Assembly (NCBI GenBank): GCA_002685955.1
Contig: NYYU01000032.1
Location: 1-34,452 of the forward strand
DNA length: 34,452 nt
Origin: Parcubacteria group bacterium
GTDB taxonomy: Bacteria; Patescibacteriota; Minisyncoccia; Portnoybacterales; UBA2143
Reading direction: 5' to 3'
Below are positions 8,508 to 8,541 of the stretch, piece after piece (the first letter of the stretch is position 1; every line of letters begins with the position of its first letter). The notes under the pieces are model-generated. The model did not search any database. It saw only the letters and a list, made by a program, of their open reading frames with translations, and was not told where the DNA came from. Made by a program: the position numbers and the translations under genes.

Positions 8508-8541
8508 CCCCCCACCACTTTTTTTAAAAAGTGGTGGGGGG
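8508..8541. repeat. 34-nt palindrome (16-bp arms) in P15-P17 region of RNase P RNA; ORF-less copy of the P3 palindrome
   Basis: ccccccaccacttttttt-aaaaagtggtgggggg; arms identical over 16 nt to those at 8001 and 8292. Confidence 0.93.

Follow-up and report, generated by a model that had tools for sequence, protein, structure and literature searches.

The window, which is the whole 34,452-nt stretch of DNA analysed from a Parcubacteria group bacterium, contains a gene for class A RNase P RNA (rnpB; RF00010, 164 bits) that holds two palindromic elements (Table 1). In the second of these, CCCCCCACCACTTTTT occupies positions 8508–8523 of the forward strand and its reverse complement lies 2 nt away at 8526–8541. 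These 16-nt arms are identical to those of the first element (8001–8016/8277–8292), which directly adjoin the ORF at 8017–8271. CCCCCCACCACTTTTT has four exact matches in the window, while 100 dinucleotide shuffles gave none even with two mismatches allowed, and the predicted identity of the two pairs of arms is exact. The 5′ strands of P1 and P2 lie upstream of 8001 (7979 pairs with 8645 and 7985 with 8639 in the fold), which places the first palindrome at P3. The second, flanked by GGTGCAAGAGCAAA and GTAGCTCGCTTGAG within P15 (GAGC/GCTC), is therefore P16, so that the ORF-less palindrome does form a second stem of the same RNase P RNA, as had been proposed from the sequence. The P16 copy has its arms in common with the ORF-bearing P3 copy and nothing internal.

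Table 1 Features of the window that bear on the palindromic elements.
Feature	Position	Strand	Basis or remarks
RNase P RNA gene (rnpB, class A), both elements inside	7977..8647	+	Ends approximate, from P1 pairing and Rfam match
Left arm of ORF-bearing element = 5′ strand of P3	8001..8016	+	Exact arm match, fold
84-aa GIY-YIG nuclease ORF filling P3 loop	8017..8271	+	Pfam PF01541, 63 bits
Right arm of ORF-bearing element = 3′ strand of P3	8277..8292	+	Exact arm match, fold
ORF-less palindromic element = P16 of RNase P RNA	8508..8541	+	Arms 8508–8523 / 8526–8541, 2-nt gap
RNase III gene, candidate processor of long stems	29862..30548	+	PF00636 match 29985–30254
Second-subfamily ORF-less element, helix 17 (h17) of 16S rRNA, 138 nt	32901..33038	+	Arms 32901–32920 / 33019–33038, ATCCCCCACCTAATTTGGAT

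The original prediction had also raised cross-pairing of the two identical stems (8001–8016 with 8526–8541), and the arms are complementary in all combinations, as a riboswitch-like alternative pairing that regulates RNase P would require. The partition function of the whole transcript, however, gives pair probabilities of 0.99 for the local P3 helix and 0.98 for the local P16 helix against ~1e-8 for either cross pairing, and the local hairpins, which are equally stable, would form first. We therefore abandon cross-pairing and regard regulation by such a switch as extremely improbable.

Both palindromes fold into stable helices where an RNase P RNA has its P3 and P16, as would co-evolving structural stems that are kept for function. 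Against this, P3 and P16 of eight same-family relatives are short native hairpins of unrelated sequence, and the palindrome sequence recurs outside rnpB and across phyla. A further short palindrome, CCCCGCAGTACTGCGGGG, is found in the 3′ part of the window's rnpB at a P19-like position (8599–8616, forward strand) and is only a candidate member of the element family; a hairpin that is the same or nearly the same forms P3 in the genomes G004, G012 and G039 (L014, L051 and L054). Other short hairpins may thus also move between rnpB helices. The idea that the palindrome is the source of the L15 GGU motif was dropped, same-family relatives being without it.

A genome-wide arm search, which had been suggested together with the prediction, was carried out with pattern and profile searches, on which the genome-wide counts are based. 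The genome, of 919 kb, contains the arm core CCCCCCACCAC six times, and every occurrence belongs to a palindrome pair; two of these pairs are in rnpB and the third is at C24:3418–3477. This third copy (G000:C24:3418-3477) is a 60-nt ORF-less palindrome inside helix 63 (H63) of the 23S rRNA, whereas H63 in several relatives, for example G007 and G001, is a short native hairpin of other sequence. Since the relatives have short native hairpins at P3, P16 and H63, the three copies are lineage-specific insertions or replacements. The original prediction had held that arms conserved at two rnpB positions only would speak for structural stems and not for an element; the 23S copy and the wide distribution outside rnpB refute such rnpB-only conservation, and co-evolving stems are hardly credible as an explanation. 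The 23S copy also bears on an intragenic duplication, in which gene conversion within rnpB generated the P16 stem from that of P3 or vice versa. The 16-nt identity of arms that lie 507 nt apart in one gene is what such a duplication would leave, but it accounts neither for the 23S copy in the same genome nor for the same arms standing alone at P16 in another genome (L096) and at many intergenic sites elsewhere. Intragenic duplication is thus largely refuted and we consider it quite improbable.

The rRNA genes of the same genome contain further inverted-repeat regions. The ends of the 16S h17 element are near-identical to those of an insert at H63 in the 23S rRNA of G004, a same-family genome, so that a single ORF-less element is present in different RNA genes in the two genera. 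The genome's own 23S rRNA, at 3365 nt compared with a 2925-nt model, contains an internal, repetitive inverted-repeat region with CAATAATCAATAACCAA (L041:1503–1828) that is probably another insert. Elsewhere in this genome, a further GIY-YIG ORF is flanked by an intact tRNA on one side and, on the other, by a degenerate 5′ part resembling that of tRNA-Ser (L009:1400–1850).

The window's arms are found well beyond its own genome, both with and without a GIY-YIG ORF. The pattern CCACCACTTTT-N(0-30)-AAAAGTGGTGG matched 88 stretches in 85,488 species genomes, mostly those of Patescibacteria and Omnitrophota, with several genomes carrying many copies, and the 14-nt arm pattern was present in 17 of the 392 genomes of the window's class; a reversed-pattern control gave 3 hits in all. 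ORF-less copies with the same arms occupy rnpB P3 (L160), rnpB P16 (L096 and L145) and a 3′ hairpin of rnpB (L145), and outside rnpB they are seen in 23S H63 (L104), in group I introns (L154 and L167) and in intergenic DNA. In two of the 17 genomes, G109 and G136, ~285 bp separate the same arms and a GIY-YIG ORF takes up this interval; the arms of G395 and G377 also enclose a GIY-YIG ORF. The GIY-YIG elements that these arms bound in other genomes (loci L188, L214, L243 and L304) are of near-identical length. The G136 unit precedes a weak RF00010 match (31.7 bits), and AGGAAAGTC directly after the unit indicates that the site is again rnpB P3. In each of three genomes, those of the window, G395 and G377, one ORF-bearing copy was found together with several ORF-less copies. 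As in rnpB, the ORF-less copies have the arms of the ORF copy but not its interior, and plain internal deletion as their origin is unsupported because the interiors differ. Exact scans of IMG/VR with the ORF-less palindrome and with the arm plus ORF start gave no match, and a viral carrier was rejected on this basis.

Several related arrangements were observed. At L102:735–820 the palindromes are nested, with one CCCCCCACCACTTTT element inserted in another. In multi-copy (Omnitrophota-like) genomes, at L094, L118, L151 and other loci, the core palindrome tips a longer palindrome, GAACATAAGTT...AACTTATGTTC, that is present in tens of copies per genome; no GIY-YIG ORF with identical arms was found in those genomes. 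In another member of the order (G022, L053), an ORF-less insert with other arms, CCCCCCACTTGCTAT...ATAGCAAGTGGGGGG, lengthens rnpB P3 at the same site.

Relatives of the 84-aa ORF product were found by protein search in 322 of the 392 genomes of the class. The 91 loci that were read are the best matches to one query plus L243 and do not form a random sample. An inverted repeat with a score of at least 12 hugs the ORF in 63 of these 91 loci, compared with 3.2% of mispaired upstream and downstream flanks, and the ORF is 75–100 aa long in 87 of them, with a median element of 297 bp. The full element is a unit of ~275–350 bp in which two inverted arms of ~12–25 nt directly flank one GIY-YIG endonuclease ORF of ~84 aa. 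Arms typically start with CCCC(C/T/A)CAC, to which the window arm CCCCCCACCAC conforms; 51 of the 60 arms that have a C-run match CCC+(T/A/G)?CAC, and the arms vary between subfamilies. Arm similarity covaries with protein similarity (Mantel r = 0.49, 0/2000 permutations). The GIY/YIG, R, H and E catalytic positions are conserved among 63 relatives, and dN/dS is ~0.1 in the closest ORF pairs, which indicates purifying selection on the ORF. Among the closest pairs are L257 and L261, both in G029, whose proteins are 97% identical and which have the same arms but different flanks. No specific NCBIfam model scored above its cut-off for the 84-aa protein, and the nearest solved structures are those of UPF0213 GIY-YIG proteins. 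A second arm type, CCCGTTAGAGAT...ATCTCTAACGGG, surrounds GIY-YIG ORFs at L318, L239, L262, L266 and L285 and may represent a further subfamily.

ORF-bearing copies recur in RNA genes and at tRNA 5′ ends, and many other copies are intergenic. Such RNA-gene copies lie in rnpB P3 of five genomes (the window, G136, G228, G244 and G129, the last in antisense), in h6 and h17 of 16S rRNA (L240, L301, L282 and L298) and in 23S rRNA (L255 and L264). At least 14 of the 91 loci lie within 30 nt upstream of a tRNA 5′ end, with element and tRNA sharing one orientation in every case; together with the 11 in rRNA or rnpB hairpins, at least 25 of the 91 occupy such sites. Rough binomial P values for the enrichment, with target sizes assumed, are 1e-23 for tRNA 5′ ends and 3e-11 for rRNA/rnpB. 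The family is therefore one that is repeatedly found in hairpins of RNase P RNA and rRNA and at the starts of tRNA genes in CPR bacteria.

When the element was defined as running from C-run to G-run and direct repeats of 4 bp or more lying flush with its ends were scored, target-site duplications were present in 25 of 58 elements, against 2.2 expected from mispaired flanks. Examples are TTTA|CCCCC...GGGGG|TTTA and TAAG|...|TAAG and, at tRNA genes, CGGTTAG|CCCC...GGGG|CGGTTAG. A G-run often precedes the target copy, so that GGGG and the repeat at the right junction together restore the start of the tRNA. The flush duplications in these sister subfamilies are standard marks of transposition. In hairpin insertions of rRNA and rnpB the duplication was present in 1 of 7; in the window's CCACCACTTTT arm subfamily one was observed against 1.2 expected (46 copies from Patescibacteria and other non-Omnitrophota genomes), and the two rnpB copies of the window have none.

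These last figures could be read in terms of an enzyme-free hairpin swap, in which microhomology recombination exchanges short CCCC/GGGG-clamped palindromes among RNA genes, one such hairpin carrying the GIY-YIG ORF as a passenger. The scarcity of duplications in the window's subfamily and in the rRNA/rnpB hairpin copies fits this reading, as do the unrelated interiors of the ORF-less copies and the C/G clamp that is often already present in native P3 and H63 hairpins. On the other hand, the duplications in 25 of 58 sister elements, the single orientation at tRNA 5′ ends, the purifying selection on the ORF and the covariation of arms and protein point to an enzyme-driven unit, and we consider a swap of this kind unlikely.

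The third copy, the wide distribution, the inverted repeats, the duplications and the arm–protein covariation argue instead for a mobile element family, and the palindrome at 8508–8541 is very probably an ORF-less, non-autonomous copy of it, with the GIY-YIG protein as the presumed mover. Arm-bounded units recur across the class and are accompanied by many ORF-less partners, duplications in sister subfamilies, occupation of RNA-gene hairpins and tRNA 5′ ends, and selection on the ORF. Within the palindrome-bounded GIY-YIG family proposed here, the P3 copy has the layout of arms plus ORF and the P16 copy consists of arms alone; target-site duplication, which is present in only part of the family, is no requirement for membership.

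In the mechanism that we envisage for this mobile family, the GIY-YIG protein would recognise its own arms and/or G-rich targets and cut, moving its own copy and, in trans, ORF-less copies. Through pairing of its arms, a copy inserted in an RNA gene would form a lengthened helix with the ORF in its loop, and the host RNA would still work. In the window, an ORF-carrying element would have entered P3 while another became, or replaced, P16. The 15–20 bp stems may be cut by RNase III, whose gene also lies in the window, leaving the RNase P RNA fragmented yet working. For the window's arm subfamily and for the rRNA and rnpB hairpin insertions that lack duplications, the element may have been swapped in for a native hairpin through its C/G-run ends, which is the weakest part of the account.

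Several known systems resemble parts of this arrangement. REP/RAYT elements and MITEs are non-autonomous palindromes presumably moved in trans by a nuclease or transposase whose gene has the same palindromes on either side. The enzymes differ: RAYTs belong to the HUH (Y1) transposases and MITEs rely on DDE transposases, whereas the sole gene here encodes a GIY-YIG nuclease. The original prediction had likened the ORF-less copy to a MITE version of the GIY-YIG element. Its non-autonomous character holds up, in that the same arms bound GIY-YIG elements of near-identical length elsewhere and ORF-less hairpins are found in many more genomes, while the MITE label is an analogy only, the interior not being common to both. 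The P16 arms are identical to those of the ORF-bearing P3 copy of the same genome, as expected of a MITE, with the same pattern in G377 and G395, but there is no DDE transposon origin with duplications: the sole enzyme is GIY-YIG, in a CCACCACTTTT subfamily without target-site duplication. Rickettsia palindromic elements likewise place palindromes in genes of a small-genome bacterium, RNA genes included; by their description they differ from the elements here, which have a GIY-YIG ORF, another sequence and another host. No Rfam group I or II intron family matched in the window, and an intron with a homing endonuclease was rejected, there being no intron core and the ORF filling the entire interior. 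The P3 ORF resembles a free-standing homing endonuclease gene in encoding a GIY-YIG nuclease with intact catalytic motifs (PF01541, 63 bits). Such genes reach allelic sites through flanking homology and have neither terminal repeats nor target-site duplications, whereas here there are terminal inverted repeats, many non-allelic sites and the target-site duplications of sister copies.

Intervening sequences (IVS) of 23S rRNA are cut by RNase III, and some encode 23S_rRNA_IVP. They are hairpin inserts in rRNA helices, sometimes with an ORF, that are tolerated without splicing (PMC11270868, introduction). Like them, the elements described here include hairpin inserts in rRNA helices, and RNase III, which is encoded in the window, is by analogy a candidate for their processing; unlike them, they involve a GIY-YIG nuclease, several RNA genes including that of RNase P RNA, target-site duplications of sister copies and numerous copies between genes. 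Mitochondrial hairpin elements (yeast GC clusters, fungal double-hairpin elements and sponge RHEs) are small palindromes that have spread genome-wide, including into rRNA genes, are kept in the transcript and are described as repeats without an assigned nuclease (PMC2800124), whereas the autonomous copies described here have a conserved GIY-YIG gene between their arms. A survey of insertion sequences in the rRNA genes of CPR bacteria (PMC11270868, J Bacteriol 2024) reports GIY-YIG ORFs in 16S and 23S rRNA, in inserts that are unlike group I or II introns, lie mostly at the top or base of stem-loops and, according to its authors, seem not to be spread by homing. The text of the survey, when searched, mentioned neither palindromes nor inverted repeats, hairpins, RNase P or tRNA. 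Compared with those inserts, the same kind of ORF here belongs to an arm-bounded element that is also present in rnpB, at tRNA 5′ ends and at intergenic sites, with target-site duplications.

No prior description of rnpB with a GIY-YIG gene, or of a palindrome in RNase P RNA, was found in the literature searched, which was thin on subscription journals and held no preprints, and as far as could be searched the element family is undescribed. It may constitute an unrecognised class of DNA transposable element, a proposition for which we see an even chance. The sole protein would be a GIY-YIG nuclease that acts as transposase on palindromic ends. The element would generate 4–7 bp target-site duplications beside G-runs and move ORF-less hairpins in trans, and the harmless helix formed by its arms would adapt it to life in structured RNA genes. 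In Penelope elements, GIY-YIG is paired with a reverse transcriptase; to our knowledge, the role of mover of an inverted-repeat element has not been assigned to GIY-YIG nucleases. The claim that such a nuclease can mobilise an inverted-repeat element and generate target-site duplications is testable. In practice, inserts of this kind reduce the scores of RNase P and rRNA models, and the genes can seem missing or broken. The family offers one account for three oddities of CPR bacteria, namely non-intron GIY-YIG inserts in rRNA, the long hairpins of RNase P RNA and the abundance of small GIY-YIG genes beside tRNAs, and the new-class reading, if true, would explain the first of these. It also implies that essential ribozymes can take up mobile DNA via hairpin arms.
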